From positions 1 to 33,740 of IMG/VR virus record IMGVR_UViG_3300028553_000104: DNA of 33,740 nt; one strand, written 5' to 3'. Positions 2,476-27,508 of this stretch are shown here, piece by piece. The position numbers and the translations under genes are program-made. The notes under the pieces are model-generated. The model was not told the DNA's origin and ran no database searches. It saw only the letters and a list, made by a program, of their open reading frames with translations. Numbering within the stretch: position 1 is the first letter of the stretch; every line of letters begins with the position of its first letter. The stretch comes from a virus.

Positions 2476-3087
2476 ATGAGAGTAAAGAATTTTGAGGTCG
2501 ATTTAGATTCTGTAGAAGATTGCCAAAAGCTAATTAATCAACTTAAAAGTAATATAGGCGAACTTCGAATATTAACACACGGCTCTAAAAAGCAAAGAGT
2601 CCGTTCTGTATTTGAAGCTTGTCGAAAGATATACAATACCGATATCAGCGACTTGTATCGTCATTTAGATTTAGATCCAAACCCGATTTATTATGTCTAT
2701 ACACATTCGGAACCTTCTAAAAAGATTGCTATAGGCAAAAACGGTATCAGTACTTTTGCGGCGACATTAGGAATGGAGTTAATTCCGTTCTATGTAGGCA
2801 AGGGTGTTGGCGATAGAGCTTACGATTTAAACCGCAACGAGACGCATCGTAAAGTAAGACAAAAACTTCAGCAGTTCGGGCAGGAAGTATCTGTTAAAAT
2901 ATTAAAATCTGGACTTACTGAGATGGAAGCATTAATATTAGAATCTAAATTAATCGATATGTTCGGACTAATAGCTTCGGGCGGTAAATTAGTAAATTTG
3001 GACGAAGGTGTAAATAGTAAAGAACGACGCTTAAAATATAAAGACGAGCTTCGTGAGATAAGTATGTTATATAAGAATTCTGTCTGA
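2476..3087 (+). CDS. GIY-YIG family endonuclease (LEM-3-like), likely homing
   Basis: 203 residues. A GIY-YIG nuclease core is visible from about residue 72: IYYVYTH (the 'GIY' strand), then FYVGKGVGDRAYD ('YIG' strand plus conserved Arg), ETHRKVRQKL, and EMEALILESKLIDMFG with the catalytic-type Glu. The N-terminal 70 residues are helical and may bind DNA. No ribosome site precedes the ATG, and the promoter -10 puts +1 on the A of ATG, so the mRNA is probably leaderless. The stop at 3085-3087 abuts a permuted tmRNA gene, so the tmRNA locus may be the target or the ride-along of this nuclease. Precise target unknown. Confidence 0.85.
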   Translation: MRVKNFEVDLDSVEDCQKLINQLKSNIGELRILTHGSKKQRVRSVFEACRKIYNTDISDLYRHLDLDPNPIYYVYTHSEPSKKIAIGKNGISTFAATLGMELIPFYVGKGVGDRAYDLNRNETHRKVRQKLQQFGQEVSVKILKSGLTEMEALILESKLIDMFGLIASGGKLVNLDEGVNSKERRLKYKDELREISMLYKNSV

Positions 3088-3422
3088 AGTTAGACTGAAA
3101 GCTATGCAAGACGCGGAGTGGTGCCCGCCACCTCCACCACAAGCATACTGTGATGCGTTACCCAGCGTGAAGTTAAGAGGGTGAAAACAGTATGCTTTTG
3201 ATGGGGGTGTATAATCCTTTCGATTGTGTAGGAAGTAAGAATAATTAGGAATCGGTAGGCGATGACCGTATAAATCAAGCAAATATTGTAAATGCAAAAA
3301 CATCTACAGGCGAAGTAACTGTTTCAGGCAAGAACGTAAAGTTCTCTGCTCGTACAGTGAAAGCTACTTTAGCAGTTTAATCACTGCTTTGATCAACTAT
3401 GATTAGAAACAGAAAATAGTAG
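3088..3422 (+). ncRNA. ssrA: Circularly permuted (two-piece) tmRNA gene
   Basis: The tRNA-like 3' end comes first: P2 3' strand CTATGCAA (3102-3109), GACGCGG T-arm start, acceptor strand CACCTCC (3129-3135), then A-CCA (3136-3139). A spacer (3140-3202) closes by a perfect 11-bp hairpin (3141-3151 with 3187-3197). The 5' end follows: GGGGGTG (3203-3209) pairs over 7 bp with CACCTCC, then TATAATCCTTTCGAT, matching the tmRNA 'GGATTCGA' region, and TTGTGTAG (3224-3231) pairs over 8 bp with the P2 strand. A pseudoknot-like CGGT/ACCG (3253-3268) precedes a tag frame that ends GCTACTTTAGCAGTTTAA, very like the tag end of E. coli ssrA. Known permuted tmRNAs are processed to two RNAs that tag and rescue stalled ribosomes with SmpB. 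The T loop is not canonical (see findings). The 5' and 3' limits are approximate. Confidence 0.85.
3279..3380 (+). other. tmRNA tag reading frame
   Basis: From GCA-AAT at 3279 (the classic Ala-Asn resume codons, 48 bases after P2) the frame is open for 33 codons to TAA 3378-3380. The peptide begins ANIVNAKTST and ends TVKATLAV, a hydrophobic tail like protease-directing tags. A shorter option is resumption at GCT 3348, giving the ten-residue tag ARTVKATLAV. A small hairpin (AGCAG/CTGCT) spans the stop codon. The resume codon cannot be settled by eye. Confidence 0.55.
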
Positions 3423-3448
3423 ATAGGGACTTCGGTCCCTATTCTTTT
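3423..3448 (+). terminator. Rho-independent terminator of tmRNA
   Basis: Perfect 8-bp stem ATAGGGAC/GTCCCTAT with a TTCG tetraloop, followed by TCTTTT. Placed just after the tmRNA coding piece. Confidence 0.9.
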
Positions 3449-3556
3449 GACATCAGTGGTAATTGGACTGTGGGTGTAGCGGCAGGGTCGGACATAAACG
3501 CCAGCAACAACTATATGTATCATTACCTTGATTTACACGCAAGGTATATCTTCTAA
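3449..3556 (+). pseudogene. Remnant of an outer-membrane beta-barrel C-terminus
   Basis: The frame from 3449 to TAA 3554-3556 reads 35 residues with alternating hydrophobic/polar residues (WTVGVAAGSDINAS, then YMYHYLDLHARYIF) and ends in Phe with aromatic or hydrophobic residues at alternate positions, the signature of the last strand of an outer-membrane barrel recognised by BamA. No start codon or upstream barrel exists: the frame runs back into the tmRNA terminator. It looks like the tail of a lost barrel gene. A chance ORF is possible. Confidence 0.35.
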
Positions 3557-3583
3557 TAGGGTTGTCGGCGTGTATTTTTTTTT
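3534..3583 (+). terminator. Terminator-like hairpin with competing upstream hairpin
   Basis: TACACGC (3534-3540) pairs with GCGTGTA (3568-3574), followed by nine T's (3575-3583). The loop is long (27 bases). The 5' arm also lies within a competing hairpin TACCTTG/CAAGGTA (3524-3530 with 3540-3546), so the two structures exclude each other. The plus-strand T-run faces the end of the minus-strand lysis cassette. Confidence 0.45.
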
Positions 3584-5418: not shown

Positions 5419-6549
5419 ATGAAAAAGCTATTATTAGCATTATTCGCAGCATCTAGCATGGGTGCTGTTCAAGCACAATCTAGTGTAACTGTATACGGTA
5501 TTTTGGACGTTGGGTACAGTGGTATTAGTACTCGTGCGAGCACCCCTAGTACTACAACCAAAACACAAACTAACAAGTTTGACCAATCAGCAGAACAAAC
5601 AAGTCGTTTAGGATTTAAAGGTAATGAAGATCTAGGTGGTGGTACTGCTGCAATCTTTACAGCTGAATTTCAATTGTATCCACAGGATGCGACATTGTCT
5701 GGTAATACCAATGGTGGGTTAGTAAATCGTCAGACATTTGTAGGTTTGAAGAAAAACGGCTTTGGGCGAGCGGCAGTTGGTACACAGTACACTCCAGTGT
5801 TTAACGCTGTAGCCGCTACTGATCCAGGCCAACTGAACAACGCAGTTGGTAGTGTTATCTATCCAGCAAATGGAAGTGATGTAACTACAACCGCATTTAC
5901 TGTGCGTTCAAGCAATGCGTTAACTGTTCAATCCGACTCCTTTAAAGGTGCTCGCATTGGTGCAATGTATGCCGCAAAGAATCAAGATACAACGCAAACT
6001 GGTCCTAACACTGGTGGTACTACAAACATCAATGGTTACGGTTTAACAGCTGACTATACATGGAACAAATTGTATGCAGTTGCGGCATATCAAAATTTCC
6101 GCAATGAAACTACAAGTTCTTCTACAGCAACACCAGTTGCTACAGCAATGACAAACAACAACGGTACAAACGTAGTTGATGGCCAAACGTATATAGGTAC
6201 AACTTATGACTTTGGTATCTTGAAGGCCTATGCTTCTTGGGTCAATCGTAACGCAACTTCTGTACTTAACTCCAATCAGTTTGCTAAACGTCAAGCTCAA
6301 CAGATTGGCGTTCGTGCTTACATCACTCCGGTAGTTGAGGGTTGGGCAAGTGTAGGTAATGGTCGTTACACAGCATTTGGTGTTGGCCAACCAACCGCTA
6401 ACTTCACTGGCTACCAAGCTGGTGCAAACTACTACTTGAGCAAGCGTACAAACTTGTATGGTATTTTTGGTTCAACCCAAACATCATCAACAAGCAATGG
6501 CGCCGCTGGTGCTAACCAGTACGCAATGGGTGTTCGTCACACATTTTAA
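5419..6549 (+). CDS. Gram-negative porin (Burkholderiales type)
   Basis: 376 residues. Signal peptide MKKLLLALFAASSMGAVQA followed by QSSVTVYGILDVGYSG, the standard first strand of the trimeric porin family of Betaproteobacteria. Typical features follow: SRLGFKGNEDLGGGTAAIF, FVGLKKNGFGRAAVGTQYTP (strand leading to constriction loop 3), YGLTADYTWNK, and the terminal strand NQYAMGVRHTF ending in Phe for BamA recognition. Length matches complete porins and there is no frameshift. It has its own ribosome site and a strong terminator at 6574-6596. A full-length porin inside a phage is unusual: lambdoid phage PA-2 encodes porin Lc, which alters host surface and superinfection, a possible parallel. 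Confidence 0.95.
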   Translation: MKKLLLALFAASSMGAVQAQSSVTVYGILDVGYSGISTRASTPSTTTKTQTNKFDQSAEQTSRLGFKGNEDLGGGTAAIFTAEFQLYPQDATLSGNTNGGLVNRQTFVGLKKNGFGRAAVGTQYTPVFNAVAATDPGQLNNAVGSVIYPANGSDVTTTAFTVRSSNALTVQSDSFKGARIGAMYAAKNQDTTQTGPNTGGTTNINGYGLTADYTWNKLYAVAAYQNFRNETTSSSTATPVATAMTNNNGTNVVDGQTYIGTTYDFGILKAYASWVNRNATSVLNSNQFAKRQAQQIGVRAYITPVVEGWASVGNGRYTAFGVGQPTANFTGYQAGANYYLSKRTNLYGIFGSTQTSSTSNGAAGANQYAMGVRHTF

Positions 6550-6611: not shown

Positions 6612-7451
6612 ATGTTAGATATAGTCACTGTAGTATTCCGAGACGAACTTCCTATATTACGAGTGCAAGCAGAAAGCATTGATCTGTACTGTCAGGATAT
6701 AGGCCTTCAAACGATCTTTGTTATTGTAAATGATGATGATAGTATTGTTGATCAAATTGATCCAAGTTGGTGGGGTAGTTTGTATGATCGTATACGCATA
6801 ATTCCACGTAGTTATTTTGATTGTAACTTTGTAGACAACGGATGGGTCAGTCAACAAGTATTAAAAGTACTGGCTAGCTCATTGAGCACTAATCAATATT
6901 CAATGATTCTAGATGCCAAAACTATTTTTGTAAAATCAACAACAATAGAGTTATTATTTCCAAACGGCAAACAAGCCGGAGGATCATATCCAATACAAGA
7001 AGTATTTCTCACAAGTGCTCGTATTGTTGGTGAATTATTTAACGTAACTGTTGATCGCAATGGCGGATCGAGTGGCGTTCCGTTTATTTTTAAAAACGAA
7101 CTTATACGTAATATGATTGTAGAAATAGAAAATCGCACAAAAGAATCATTTCCTAAATGGTTCCAAGACCAAGGAATGGTCACTGAATATATTTTATATG
7201 TAGGGTACTGTAAATATCTATATGGCACCCTGGATGATATGTATAGTCAATCCTATCCATACCAAGTGGTTAATTTATGCCATAGTCAAACTGGAATTAT
7301 TCCTAATAAATTAAACGACATGGCCCTGGACAACACCCTTACGGTTAGTATACATCGTCGTGCATGGACAGTCATGACAGAAGAACAAAAAGATACTTAT
7401 AGAAAGTTATTAACGAGCCGACACATAAAAACAGCAGGCGATCTAAAATGA
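6612..7451 (+). CDS. DUF6492-like glycosyltransferase-fold protein
   Basis: 279 residues. It begins LDIVTVVFRDELPILRVQAESID, as in GT-A-like DUF6492 proteins; then FVIVNDDD at about 36-43 and SMILDAKTIFVK at about 98-109, where 'DAK' sits in place of the usual GT-A metal-binding DxD region. GGSSGVPFIFKNELI and the WFQDQGMVTEYILY region complete the family look. Likely role is sugar or nucleotide-sugar chemistry on a surface glycan, but no substrate can be read. Its last codons overlap the PIG-L gene by 4 bases (ATGA), so the two are one translational unit. Confidence 0.65.
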   Translation: MLDIVTVVFRDELPILRVQAESIDLYCQDIGLQTIFVIVNDDDSIVDQIDPSWWGSLYDRIRIIPRSYFDCNFVDNGWVSQQVLKVLASSLSTNQYSMILDAKTIFVKSTTIELLFPNGKQAGGSYPIQEVFLTSARIVGELFNVTVDRNGGSSGVPFIFKNELIRNMIVEIENRTKESFPKWFQDQGMVTEYILYVGYCKYLYGTLDDMYSQSYPYQVVNLCHSQTGIIPNKLNDMALDNTLTVSIHRRAWTVMTEEQKDTYRKLLTSRHIKTAGDLK

Positions 7452-7981
7452 AGGCAATGGTCATGGTAGCACATCCCGATGATTGTGTTATCTTTGCCTA
7501 CAGTTTTATGCATCATTATCCAGAGCTCGAGTGGACCGTGTGTTATCTTACGCACATCGTCAATGACCCCCGAGGTCGAGAGTTTGCTAACTTTTGGTGT
7601 CGACGAGGGATCACTACTAAATTTTTAGAGTTTACTGATAGCTGGAACTTTGTAAAAAATGGAGAATTAGGGTTTGATCCTGTTGTTGCCGCTGATGCGA
7701 TTAAAGAAGCAATCGGCACTCAAGATTTAATACTTACCCACGATCACCGTGGAGATTATGGGCATGTACATCATAAGTTTATACATGATGTAGTAGCATC
7801 AAATCATGCCTACATAGTAACTTTTGCTGGCATTGGTAAAGGCAATATTAAATATACTATAGAGCCGGGTGTTTATAGCCTAGATGAATTTCCGTTGCAT
7901 AAAGATATTGTTTCTGGTTTTCATCAACAACTGCATGCAAATGAATATTGTGTTTCAGAAAGAGTAAGAAAAATATTATGA
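7448..7981 (+). CDS. PIG-L/LmbE-family N-acetylglucosamine-type deacetylase
   Basis: 177 residues. The N-terminal zinc motif AHPDD is at residues 8-12 after a hydrophobic strand (MVMV), and GHVHHKFIHD supplies the second HxxH zinc site near residue 110. PIG-L enzymes deacetylate GlcNAc-like sugars, including LPS and natural-product intermediates. Slightly shorter than typical 220-aa members. It overlaps the upstream glycosyltransferase-like gene and the downstream SGNH gene by 4 bases each, so the three genes are likely expressed as one sugar-modifying unit. Confidence 0.85.
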   Translation: MKAMVMVAHPDDCVIFAYSFMHHYPELEWTVCYLTHIVNDPRGREFANFWCRRGITTKFLEFTDSWNFVKNGELGFDPVVAADAIKEAIGTQDLILTHDHRGDYGHVHHKFIHDVVASNHAYIVTFAGIGKGNIKYTIEPGVYSLDEFPLHKDIVSGFHQQLHANEYCVSERVRKIL

Positions 7982-8796
7982 CAAAACGATTAATGGTAGC
8001 CGGTTGTAGTTTTAGTGCTCCAAGTCAAAAACTGCCGGGAACTAGCTGGGGCGAAATAATGGCTGACCGATTGGGCTGGAATCTAACTAGCCTGGCGCGA
8101 CAAGGGTGTAGTAATGGCGGTATTAGAATTCAAATTGAAGAGATCCGTAGACAACGTCCCGACTTTGCTGTGGTGAGTGCAACCTTTTGGGATCGTATGG
8201 AGATCCCTGCTCGAGCTGCACCATATGATTGGAGTATTTCGGCTGGTGGCTGGGATCCTAAACTACAACAACATCTACAAGATTGTACATTAAAAAATGG
8301 ATACAATCGTGCCGATGGTATTGATAATGTTAATTACAAAACCAACCATTACAATATGATATGTGAAACTATTTTTAGTTTAATCGATTCCAAAGAACAT
8401 CCGTATCGTAGTGGCGCAGTTGACTCTCATACAAAAAATGCACTTAAATTATATGTTGATGCCATTTATGACGCGAACTGGAAGAAACAGCAGGACGAAT
8501 GGATTATTCGTGAAGGGGTGCTATCAATGTACCTAGATGGTATTAAATTTTTGTTTTTGCCAAACTTACTTTGGCCGTTTGATCCAGCTAATCAATCTCA
8601 ATGGCGCGACGCTTTTCCTAGCTTAATACCCGATCACTATCTACAATTAGACCCAATGCGAACCCCGCAAGTTGCAACAGGTACACACCCGTGCGATCCT
8701 AAGAACGATCCAGGTTATCATGGCAACCATGCCAGCCAAGAACTAATTGCCAACTGGCACTTAGCATATATGAAGAATGGATTTGACCTAAGTTAA
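7978..8796 (+). CDS. SGNH/GDSL-hydrolase-like protein 1
   Basis: The frame opens at 7948, but ATG 7978 (MTKRLMVAGCSFSAP) overlaps the PIG-L stop by 4 bases and starts at the domain, so it is preferred (272 aa). GCSFSAP is the block I serine motif variant, ARQGCSNGGIRIQI resembles block II with Gly, and FAVVSATFWDR resembles block III. A late HG/H pair (GYHGNHASQE) may provide the catalytic His. Such enzymes often act as sugar O-acetylesterases or transferases. Function inferred from fold only. Convergent with the radical SAM gene, overlapping by 4 bases. Confidence 0.65.
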   Translation: MTKRLMVAGCSFSAPSQKLPGTSWGEIMADRLGWNLTSLARQGCSNGGIRIQIEEIRRQRPDFAVVSATFWDRMEIPARAAPYDWSISAGGWDPKLQQHLQDCTLKNGYNRADGIDNVNYKTNHYNMICETIFSLIDSKEHPYRSGAVDSHTKNALKLYVDAIYDANWKKQQDEWIIREGVLSMYLDGIKFLFLPNLLWPFDPANQSQWRDAFPSLIPDHYLQLDPMRTPQVATGTHPCDPKNDPGYHGNHASQELIANWHLAYMKNGFDLS

Positions 8797-9824
8797 AGTG
8801 TTTGTGGGTTCTTTGCCATAGTCCAGTTACCGCAGGTGTCAACACAGGTATAAATTCTACCGTCGGCTATTGATTTCTTCGCCCAAGATTCCTCTACAGA
8901 ATCAAACCATGCAATACAATGCTCGAGACTGTATTCAAGGGCATTATTTTCTTTTACTACGTTAACTAACTGTTCATTACCAGGTTGATGCATCGAGCCA
9001 GGATAAAATCCAAGATAACAACATGGATACACTGTGCCGTCGGCGGCAAGATATAATTCTCGTTGTCTTTTATGGTTACATCCTATTGTGAGGGTTTCTG
9101 TGTCTTTTATATGTTTAATAGTTTTTGAATTAAACCAAGTTATATGACTTTCAAGCATGGCACCTATAGGTGGCGGATCTGCAGGTTCAGTAAGGCTGCG
9201 GTTGCCGATCCAATGACTAAAGCTGCCATCTCTGTTATATGCCGGACCACGATCTCGTCCGCCATCGATATTATCAAACTTAAAAAATCCTAGTGCTGTT
9301 GCTAATTCCTCACACTGAGCCAGTTGATGGCGGTTATGATCAAATGGAATAAATCTCCAAATAGCTCGGCCGCCAGCTTGTATAAATGCTGTGGCATTTT
9401 TAATTATTGTATCCCAATTAGTGTCTTGTCTATATAAGTTATGAGTATCCGAGAGGCCGTCTATACCCCACCCAATTTGTACCCCAGGTAGTGCTAATCG
9501 GGACCACCACTCGGGTGTTCGCATACTACCGTTAGTACTAATATGAATACGTTGAATGTTATTTTTAACTAGGTACTCGACTATCTCTAGTCCATCTTTA
9601 GCAAGACCAAAATCGCCAAGATTGCCATTAAACACTACTCGCTTAATTTGTTTTAAAAATTCAGGGGGTAGTATATGTTTAATATCTGCCAACCTAAGTT
9701 CCGTTTCGGGATATCCGCTATTGTAATCCATTCCTCGATAGTTGCGCATACACATCGGACAACGAGCATTACAACGGGTGGTTAATTCAATTTGGATTTG
9801 TTCTATATCGTGAAGTTTAAGCAT
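8793..9824 (-). CDS. Radical SAM enzyme with SPASM-like C-terminal cysteines
   Basis: 343 residues. The [4Fe-4S] motif CNARCPMC (Cys18, Cys22, Cys25) sits in TTRCNARCPMCMRNYRG; GNLGD at about 67-71 and ISTNGS at about 95-100 fit the radical SAM barrel. The C-terminal third has extra cysteines (TIGCNHKRQRELYLAADG, then PCCYLGF, C-x-AWF and CVDTCGNW), the pattern of a SPASM or Twitch auxiliary-cluster domain. Such enzymes modify peptides (RiPPs) or small substrates. No precursor peptide gene is obvious next to it. The start is preceded by TATAAATA with no ribosome site, so translation is likely leaderless. Confidence 0.85.
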   Translation of the reverse strand: MLKLHDIEQIQIELTTRCNARCPMCMRNYRGMDYNSGYPETELRLADIKHILPPEFLKQIKRVVFNGNLGDFGLAKDGLEIVEYLVKNNIQRIHISTNGSMRTPEWWSRLALPGVQIGWGIDGLSDTHNLYRQDTNWDTIIKNATAFIQAGGRAIWRFIPFDHNRHQLAQCEELATALGFFKFDNIDGGRDRGPAYNRDGSFSHWIGNRSLTEPADPPPIGAMLESHITWFNSKTIKHIKDTETLTIGCNHKRQRELYLAADGTVYPCCYLGFYPGSMHQPGNEQLVNVVKENNALEYSLEHCIAWFDSVEESWAKKSIADGRIYTCVDTCGNWTMAKNPQTL

Positions 9825-20635: not shown

Positions 20636-20723
20636 GGAAGACTCCCATAATGGTATTGGAACAGATTACTAATCTGTCGGCTGCGTGAGCGGTTTCGGAG
20701 TTCGAGTCTCCGGTCTTCCTCCA
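20636..20723 (+). tRNA. Type II tRNA with anticodon ACT (Ser, reading AGT)
   Basis: Acceptor GGAAGAC/GTCTTCC (7 bp), short D stem CCA/TGG with GG in the loop, anticodon stem ACAGA/TCTGT with loop TTACTAA (anticodon 20668-20670), a long variable arm (about 20678-20695), T arm CGGAG/CTCCG with loop TTCGAGT, and encoded CCA. A long variable arm plus ACT gives serine. Two odd points: bacteria normally use GCT for AGY codons, and the discriminator base is T rather than the G usual in serine tRNAs. The product is therefore likely but not certainly charged with serine. Confidence 0.85.
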
Positions 20724-26422: not shown

Positions 26423-27508
26423 ATGTCAGAAACAAGAACAGTCACTTCGGTGCAGGCTCGCAAGAGTTTACTCAAGGCATTCAAAAAACAACGCCCATTA
26501 TTCCTCTGGGGTCCTCCTGGAATTGGTAAATCAGAATTAGTAGCAGATATCACTGAGGAACTCGGTGGCATTATGATCGACCTTCGCTTGGGTCAGATGG
26601 AGCCCACAGACATTCGTGGTATTCCGTTTTATAATAAAGACAACGGCAAGATGGACTGGGCTGAACCAATTGATTTGCCAAGTGAAGAACTTGCTAGTCA
26701 GTATCCGATTGTAGTCCTGTTCCTAGATGAAATGAATGCAAGTGCTCCTAGTGTTCAAGCCGCGGCATATCAACTAATCTTAAATCGTCGTATCGGTAAA
26801 TATCATTTGCCAAAAAATGTAGTAATGGTTGCCGCAGGTAATCGTGAGTCAGACAAGGGTGTTACATATCGCATGCCGACACCCTTGGCAAACCGTTTTA
26901 TTCACCAAGAGATGAAGTGTGATTTTACATCTTGGCAAGAGTGGGCTGTGAACAAGAACATCCACAAAGACGTGGTCGGTTACTTGTCATACGCCAAGCA
27001 AGATTTATACGACTTTGATGCTAAGTCAGCAAGCCGTGCCTTTGCAACACCACGCTCGTGGACCTTTGTAAGCGAATTGCTGGAAGATGAAGACAGCGAT
27101 GATGATACAATTACCAACTTGATTGCTGGTACAGTGGGCGAAGGCCTTGCTATCAAGTTCATGGCACACCGCAAGATTGCTGGTCGTATGCCCAAGCCAG
27201 AAGACATCTTGTCTGGTAAGGAAAAAGAGCTGAATGTTAAAGAAGTCTCAGCAATGTACAGTTTGGTGATTAGTATGTGCTACGAGCTTAAGGCCGCAAT
27301 TGAAGCCAAGGTGTCGGATAAACAGTTCCACGAAATGGCCGATAACTTCTTTGGTTACATGATGAAGAACTTTGAAACTGAGTTGGTGGTGATGGGAGCC
27401 CGCATAGCACTCACGACATATAATTTGCCATTCCAACCAACCAAGTTGAAAAACTTTGATGAATTTCACCAACGCTACGGCAAGTATATTTTACAGGCAA
27501 GCGCCTAA
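26423..27508 (+). CDS. MoxR-family AAA+ ATPase
   Basis: 361 residues. Walker A GPPGIGKS at 30-37, GQMEPTDIRGIP, Walker B VVLFLDEMN around 98-105, sensor-like VVMVAAGNRESD and an arginine-finger region PTPLANRFIH. MoxR ATPases work with a VWA or metallopeptidase-like partner to remodel or mature protein complexes. The probable partner starts at 33145, an HExxH protein. The ribosome site AAAAGGA precedes ATG 26423. In phages the pair is of unknown function, possibly involved in virion assembly or host complex remodelling. Confidence 0.9.
   Translation: MSETRTVTSVQARKSLLKAFKKQRPLFLWGPPGIGKSELVADITEELGGIMIDLRLGQMEPTDIRGIPFYNKDNGKMDWAEPIDLPSEELASQYPIVVLFLDEMNASAPSVQAAAYQLILNRRIGKYHLPKNVVMVAAGNRESDKGVTYRMPTPLANRFIHQEMKCDFTSWQEWAVNKNIHKDVVGYLSYAKQDLYDFDAKSASRAFATPRSWTFVSELLEDEDSDDDTITNLIAGTVGEGLAIKFMAHRKIAGRMPKPEDILSGKEKELNVKEVSAMYSLVISMCYELKAAIEAKVSDKQFHEMADNFFGYMMKNFETELVVMGARIALTTYNLPFQPTKLKNFDEFHQRYGKYILQASA

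Follow-up and report, generated by a model that had tools for sequence, protein, structure and literature searches.

A permuted two-piece tmRNA gene with a non-standard elbow and a long phage-only tag on a phage contig

The tmRNA locus and its genomic setting

The window, i.e. the whole stretch of DNA analysed here, is an entire IMG/VR virus record (IMGVR_UViG_3300028553_000104; 33,740 bases) and probably covers only part of a larger genome. On its plus strand, flanked by a homing-endonuclease-like ORF and an opposite-strand lysis cassette (spanin-like and endolysin genes), lies a tmRNA gene in permuted order. The ORF and the parts of the gene, with their source where one applies, are as follows:

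2476–3087, plus strand: ORF of 203 aa with weak similarity to homing-endonuclease families (it reads as GIY-YIG-like), running at its 3' end into the tmRNA match, which starts at 3076
3076–3139, plus strand: acceptor piece, the CCA-ended 5' part of the transcript (RF04321 match)
3102–3109, plus strand: P2 strand 1, pairing with 3224–3231 (folding)
3113–3128, plus strand: T-arm GCGG-A-GUGGUG-C-CCGC, with a 4-bp stem, a variable closing pair and a 6-nt non-standard T-loop
3129–3139, plus strand: acceptor 3' strand CACCUCC (U70), discriminator A73 and CCA (RF04321 match)
3140–3202, plus strand: spacer of 63 nt with an 11-bp hairpin (3141–3151/3187–3197), presumably removed (folding)
3203–3209, plus strand: acceptor 5' strand GGGGGUG, giving the G3-U70 wobble (RF04321 match)
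3210–3223, plus strand: D-loop segment UAUAAUCCUUUCGA, with CC at 3216–3217 versus GG in bacterial models
3224–3231, plus strand: P2 strand 2 (folding)
3253–3268, plus strand: pre-tag hairpin CGGU...ACCG, corresponding to a stem that follows P2 in the Rfam model; presumably part of PK1 (RF04321 alignment)
3294–3380, plus strand: tag frame, opening with resume codon GCA and closed by UAA, AKTSTGEVTVSGKNVKFSARTVKATLAV*
3371–3388, plus strand: stop-codon hairpin AGCAGU/ACUGCU (alignment of relatives)
3390–3420, plus strand: H-type pseudoknot, stem 1 3391–3394/3401–3404, stem 2 3396–3400/3416–3420 (covariation, 24 relatives)
3423–3442, plus strand: terminator-like hairpin AUAGGGACUUCGGUCCCUAU, followed by UCUUUUG (stem kept in relatives with a different sequence)

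The Rfam model RF04321 (tmRNA_permuted) matched positions 3076–3380 over its full length, from model position 1 to 213; the match scored 56.4 bits, above the cut-off of 47, with an E-value of 1.4e-8 for the window. A sequence-only reading of this DNA had claimed a circularly permuted tmRNA gene and proposed a search with the Rfam models; RF04321 bears the claim out, whereas the older, clade-specific beta_tmRNA scored 31.4 bits, under its cut-off of 84. The structural elements of that reading were likewise found where it had placed them: the acceptor 3' strand CACCTCC with ACCA precedes its partner GGGGGTG, the two forming a 7-bp stem; an 8-bp P2 helix, including two G-U pairs, joins CTATGCAA to TTGTGTAG; and AAGCATACTGT pairs with ACAGTATGCTT in the 11-bp spacer hairpin. 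Folding of 3095–3240 in isolation reproduces these helices (z = −3.2 versus shuffles). Features that the sequence-only reading had not pointed out are the non-standard loops of the T-arm and D-arm, the 28-aa tag and the pseudoknot at the 3' side. The stop-codon hairpin and H-type pseudoknot are retained in 24 relatives, where 36 cells are changed on both sides of the pairing compared with 8.6 in shuffles, and the covariation score of 0.301 (0.099 shuffled) was reached by 0 of 500 shuffles; it was far lower in all slid versions of the pairing. Downstream of the pseudoknot, relatives carry terminator-like stems of varying sequence. ARAGORN made no call at the locus, and no Rfam riboswitch was found near the gene. 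The region 3460–3580 was considered as a second tmRNA or other RNA and rejected, its only match being a 5-bit chance match.

Through its ATPase (26423–27508), the window shares 95% identity with proteins of contigs of up to 228 kb, wider relatives reaching 344 kb, and among cultured phages this protein is closest to that of PA5oct-like Pseudomonas jumbo phages (50%). RF04321 matched in 38 of 50 relative contigs, picked mostly via the window ATPase, together with three (L201–L203) sharing the neighbouring ORF, and scanning for a single acceptor type by itself gave at least 119 viral stretches; on these two counts, phage-borne permuted tmRNA is common. Two phage contigs, G011 (the L139 contig; 95340–95902) and G095 (the L413 contig; 218519–219064), each hold two adjacent permuted-tmRNA matches, possibly tandem or partial copies. 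At 5419–6549 (plus strand) the window has a gene for a full-length porin of the outer membrane (Porin_4, E 7e-37), possibly a host-surface gene carried by the phage; its closest matches in a plasmid collection are Burkholderiales porins at about 30%, and it is from this porin that a betaproteobacterial host is suggested. Elsewhere in the window, ARAGORN called a tRNA-Ser with anticodon ACT at 20636–20723 (plus strand; an unusual A34 for AGU, and below the Rfam cut-off there) and two tRNA-Met(CAT) genes lie at 1798 and 11003, either of which could instead be tRNA-Ile2. A cluster of sugar-/SAM-type enzymes (DUF6492, PIG-L deacetylase, radical SAM) occupies 6612–9824, most of its members lacking a PHROG match.

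Elbow loops and alanine identity

The T-loop (GUGGUG) and D-loop (UAAUCC) of the window tmRNA both depart from the standard UUCRANU/GG set, which is characteristic of the bacterial models but was not taken as obligatory, as do those of other phage classes whose tmRNAs are otherwise intact; the window T-arm is without the standard U54-A58 motif, which stabilises tRNA elbows. The bacterial standard used for comparison is the Rfam consensus rather than a survey of bacterial genomes; in it, the T-loop UUCGAUU and the D-loop UGG ahead of UUUCGAC are both highly conserved. In a survey of 95 distinct tRNA-like domains from phages, T-loop and D-loop fell into matched classes: UUC with GG in 41, UGC with AG in 31 of 31, GGC with AG in 12 of 12, and GUGGUG with CC in 6 of 6, the last set having been retrieved by a T-loop scan that disregarded the D-loop. 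Within the UUC/GG class, 17 of the 41 D-loops read AGG and could also be taken as AG; GG is carried as well by five domains whose 6-nt T-loops are of UUCGAA/U type; and one further domain (L031, UGC with UAGGAU), ambiguous by one base of spacing, was counted apart. The classes read as a coordinated change of the two loops, at positions 18-19 in one and 55-56 in the other. In the UGC class, this would be an exchange of G18/U55 for A18/G55, and in the GUGGUG/CC class of the window a swapped G/C contact, the precise contacts within the six-base loop being a prediction. We found no earlier report of these loop classes in the literature searched, most subscription journals being outside the reach of that search.

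At the acceptor end, G3·U70, A73 and CCA occur in 95/95 phage domains (CCA being required by the search), and G3·U70 in 36/36 domains retrieved independently of acceptor sequence, across 11 different acceptor strand pairs. The window tmRNA carries the same predicted alanine identity (G3-U70 wobble, A73). The covariance-model match, the covariation of acceptor, D/T-loop and pseudoknot in relatives, and the conserved G3-U70 wobble thus uphold the earlier claim of a permuted tmRNA gene on a phage and argue for a working one. We consider it highly probable (about 0.83) that the locus is a complete, functional-looking two-piece tmRNA gene of a large phage, the host of which is likely a betaproteobacterium. 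Points against this are the T-arm without U54-A58, the lack of a Clp gene among the window ORFs searched, and a tag that ends in LAV where E. coli ClpXP depends most on Ala-Ala (PMC7652416).

The tag peptide and the Clp proteins of relatives

The tag of the window tmRNA is 28 aa long (AKTSTGEVTVSGKNVKFSARTVKATLAV, 3294–3377, with an Ala resume codon and the stop at 3378–3380), holds an VTVSGKNVKFSAR core and ends in LAV, without the C-terminal Ala-Ala of the ssrA degron. Tags of this kind run to 27–29 aa compared with the usual 10, and end in LAV, FAV, LAL or LA rather than LAA. Lengths of the 67 confidently read tags (35 of 10 aa, 20 of 25–29 aa) include loci fetched via the tag itself and are not a frequency. 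The pattern VTV(S/T)GKN(V/I)KF matched 71 viral stretches, representing 54 distinct viral loci, all of them tmRNA tags; across 84,980 bacterial and archaeal genomes it matched once, in an ordinary ORF, and in no bacterial tmRNA. Within these searches, the long tag is phage-only. No match to the tag, or to the tmRNA, was found among cultured phages in the collection, and no earlier report of the long tag in the same searched literature, again with most subscription journals out of reach. The core serine is Ser in 44 of 45 cases, encoded by both TCN and AGY codons, though S, R, T, C and W were all permitted by the pattern. The pN/pS of 0.21 for the core is not proof of selection, the set having been retrieved by an amino-acid pattern, and for the invariant codons GTA, ACT and TTC, RNA constraint or recent common origin is also possible.

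The long tag is found on tRNA-like domains of every loop class, and between the window and its relatives 66–85% is shared in the tag and 3' part against 60–73% in the tRNA-like part, a picture that suggests modular exchange. The tRNA-like part of L201–L203 matches the window exactly, while the tag differs from that of the window in L202 and L203. Other long tags exist: phage permuted tmRNAs L030 and L056 carry a different family, ANLKASGNVTFVNFGAKLPTNDQVFALAA, and L313 another. The tag was also considered as a piece of another phage protein, and this was rejected: across 28 contigs its motif occurred at most once per contig, in the tmRNA only, and it had no Pfam match. Matches of the tag in the PDB (best E 0.00028) were likewise set aside as sums over clostridial cell-wall-binding repeats in which each stretch is at chance level.

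Pfam searches with positive controls found neither SmpB nor SspB in 27 large relatives, and with no phage SmpB the tmRNA would presumably rely on a host copy. ClpP is encoded by 10 of the 27 contigs, eight of which also encode a second, divergent ClpP-like protein about 2–4 kb off, and the AAA_2 proteins of relatives comprise a ClpA of about 760 aa and a ClpX of about 400 aa (ClpA and ClpP were checked by NCBIfam, ClpX by reading its sequence). The long-tag tmRNA occurs together with ClpX, ClpA and ClpP in three contigs (G008, G020 and G051). In L327–L330, L333–L336 and jumbo contigs related to them, a tmRNA is accompanied by ClpX, ClpA and ClpP together with another, divergent ClpP-like gene, and the ClpX residues that read the degron vary from clade to clade. 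No Clp gene was found among the window ORFs searched.

In E. coli, ClpX reads the ssrA tag through residues including T199, V202, R228 and H230, with H230A greatly raising KM, and Ala-Ala is the key ssrA element for ClpXP (PMC7652416). In all seven contigs that carry AND...AA tags, the phage ClpX reads SITRDV and RKH; RKH occurs in 0 of 6 others. In these six contigs, which have unusual tags (four the long LAV tag, two a 13-aa ANA(A/S)NDExFALAA tag), residue 199 is S, A or T and residue 230 is V, T, Q, S or N. The non-H ClpX sequences form a single clade (support 100/99), two members of which (G009 and G077) have LAA-ending tags; one clade means a single evolutionary event and not independent proof, and the link between altered T199/H230 and unusual tags is only suggestive.

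Alternative explanations and proposed role

One alternative is that the gene is inert, a decaying remnant of a host-derived tmRNA in which the odd T-arm and D-loop are simply damage. The T-loop is indeed non-standard, the 56-bit RF04321 score of the window is low compared with most relatives (mostly 85–143 bits), and ARAGORN misses the gene. Yet GUGGUG recurs in six distinct domains, every one with a CC that the retrieval had not asked for; G3-U70 and CCA are intact, as are the tag frame, which stays open, and the covarying pseudoknot of the 3' domain; and the tRNA-like part is held constant across L201–L203 while the tag varies. Decay therefore seems very improbable to us. We give equally little credence to a dominant-negative or decoy tmRNA that would sequester host SmpB, AlaRS or ribosomes and so block host trans-translation, even though the CDS-less tmRNA of phage DS6A is quoted in PMC11915505 as inhibiting the endogenous tmRNA in E. 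coli, and phages without SmpB, as in the 27 relatives, would compete for that of the host. A decoy would need neither the open tag frame, nor the hydrophobic-Ala terminus, nor the protein-level constraint found here.

An alternative that we regard as unlikely, though less so than these two, accepts a working tmRNA and gives its tag a mainly non-proteolytic purpose, e.g. labelling rescued host fragments for some phage structure or delaying their breakdown. Such a purpose would fit the length of the tag, its conserved core and its range of LAV, FAV, LAL or LA ends; the retained hydrophobic-Ala C-terminus, the Clp proteases encoded by relatives and the lack of any same-motif phage protein in 28 contigs speak against it. 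A private tag-and-degrade pathway, joining the two-piece tmRNA, the phage-only LAV tag, a ClpX altered at T199 and H230 and phage ClpP, apart from the LAA-based ssrA system of the host, is somewhat more plausible, but we put it forward only tentatively.

Returning to a functional two-piece tmRNA, the following mechanism can be envisaged. A single transcript would carry, in order, P2 strand 1, the T-arm, the acceptor 3' strand with CCA, the spacer hairpin, the acceptor 5' strand, the D-loop, P2 strand 2, the tag frame, the stop hairpin, the pseudoknot and the terminator. Host tRNA-processing enzymes would excise the spacer, leaving two RNAs that stay paired through the acceptor stem and P2. Host AlaRS would charge the molecule via the G3-U70 wobble and, because relatives encode no SmpB, host SmpB with EF-Tu would deliver it to stalled ribosomes, which would resume at GCA and append the 28-aa tag. 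With a C-terminal LAV in place of LAA, tagged proteins would be read by a protease of adjusted specificity, possibly the phage's own ClpX and ClpP, such as the largest relatives encode. The likely benefit would be the release of ribosomes that stall on broken mRNA in infected cells, with the truncated products steered by the phage. We infer, in line with the sequence-only reading, that the RNA may rescue ribosomes while mRNA is degraded or may tag host proteins.

Permuted tmRNAs carried by phages are already published (PMC9004378, PMC11915505), so the phage location is not new: 53 two-piece tmRNAs in a phage database were reported along with a detailed case, Methylophilales phage Melnitz (PMC9004378), and the tmRNA database holds 79 bacteriophage sequences of all forms (PMC11915505). 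The tmRNAs of Melnitz and pelagimyophages are also virus-borne and permuted, with similar proposed roles, but the Melnitz gene has a glutamine riboswitch (PMC9004378), whereas no Rfam riboswitch was found close to the window gene. With the bacterial two-piece tmRNAs of Alphaproteobacteria, Betaproteobacteria and Cyanobacteria (RF04321, RF01849, RF01850, RF01851), the window gene shares gene order, acceptor and P2 helices, G3-U70, CCA, spacer, resume codon, tag and 3' hairpin; it differs in having GUGGUG/CC rather than UUCGAUU/GG and a 28-aa LAV-ending tag, and in falling under the beta_tmRNA cut-off. Jumbo phages such as Atu_ph07 (ClpX, ClpA, ClpB, ClpS and ClpP-like) likewise encode their own Clp chaperones and protease, in papers without mention of tmRNA (PMC6102473; PMC7824862), whereas here Clp genes and tmRNA lie on the same contigs. 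The surprising parts are the elbow class and the phage-only tag.

Misses by ARAGORN are concentrated in the non-standard loop classes (GUGGUG 5/5 tested, GGC 5/11, UGC 4/31, standard 1/41), an annotation gap for tmRNAs of this kind. Phage tmRNAs are usually just noted and left, but their natural loop variation offers direct tests, and the covarying loop pairs, the swapped GG/CC contact among them, are informative about how far tRNA-like function depends on a standard T-loop. A private phage tag-and-degrade route is a possibility that can be tested as well and, if true, the coexistence of phage Clp proteases with a phage-only tag would open virus control of ribosome rescue and proteolysis to experiment.
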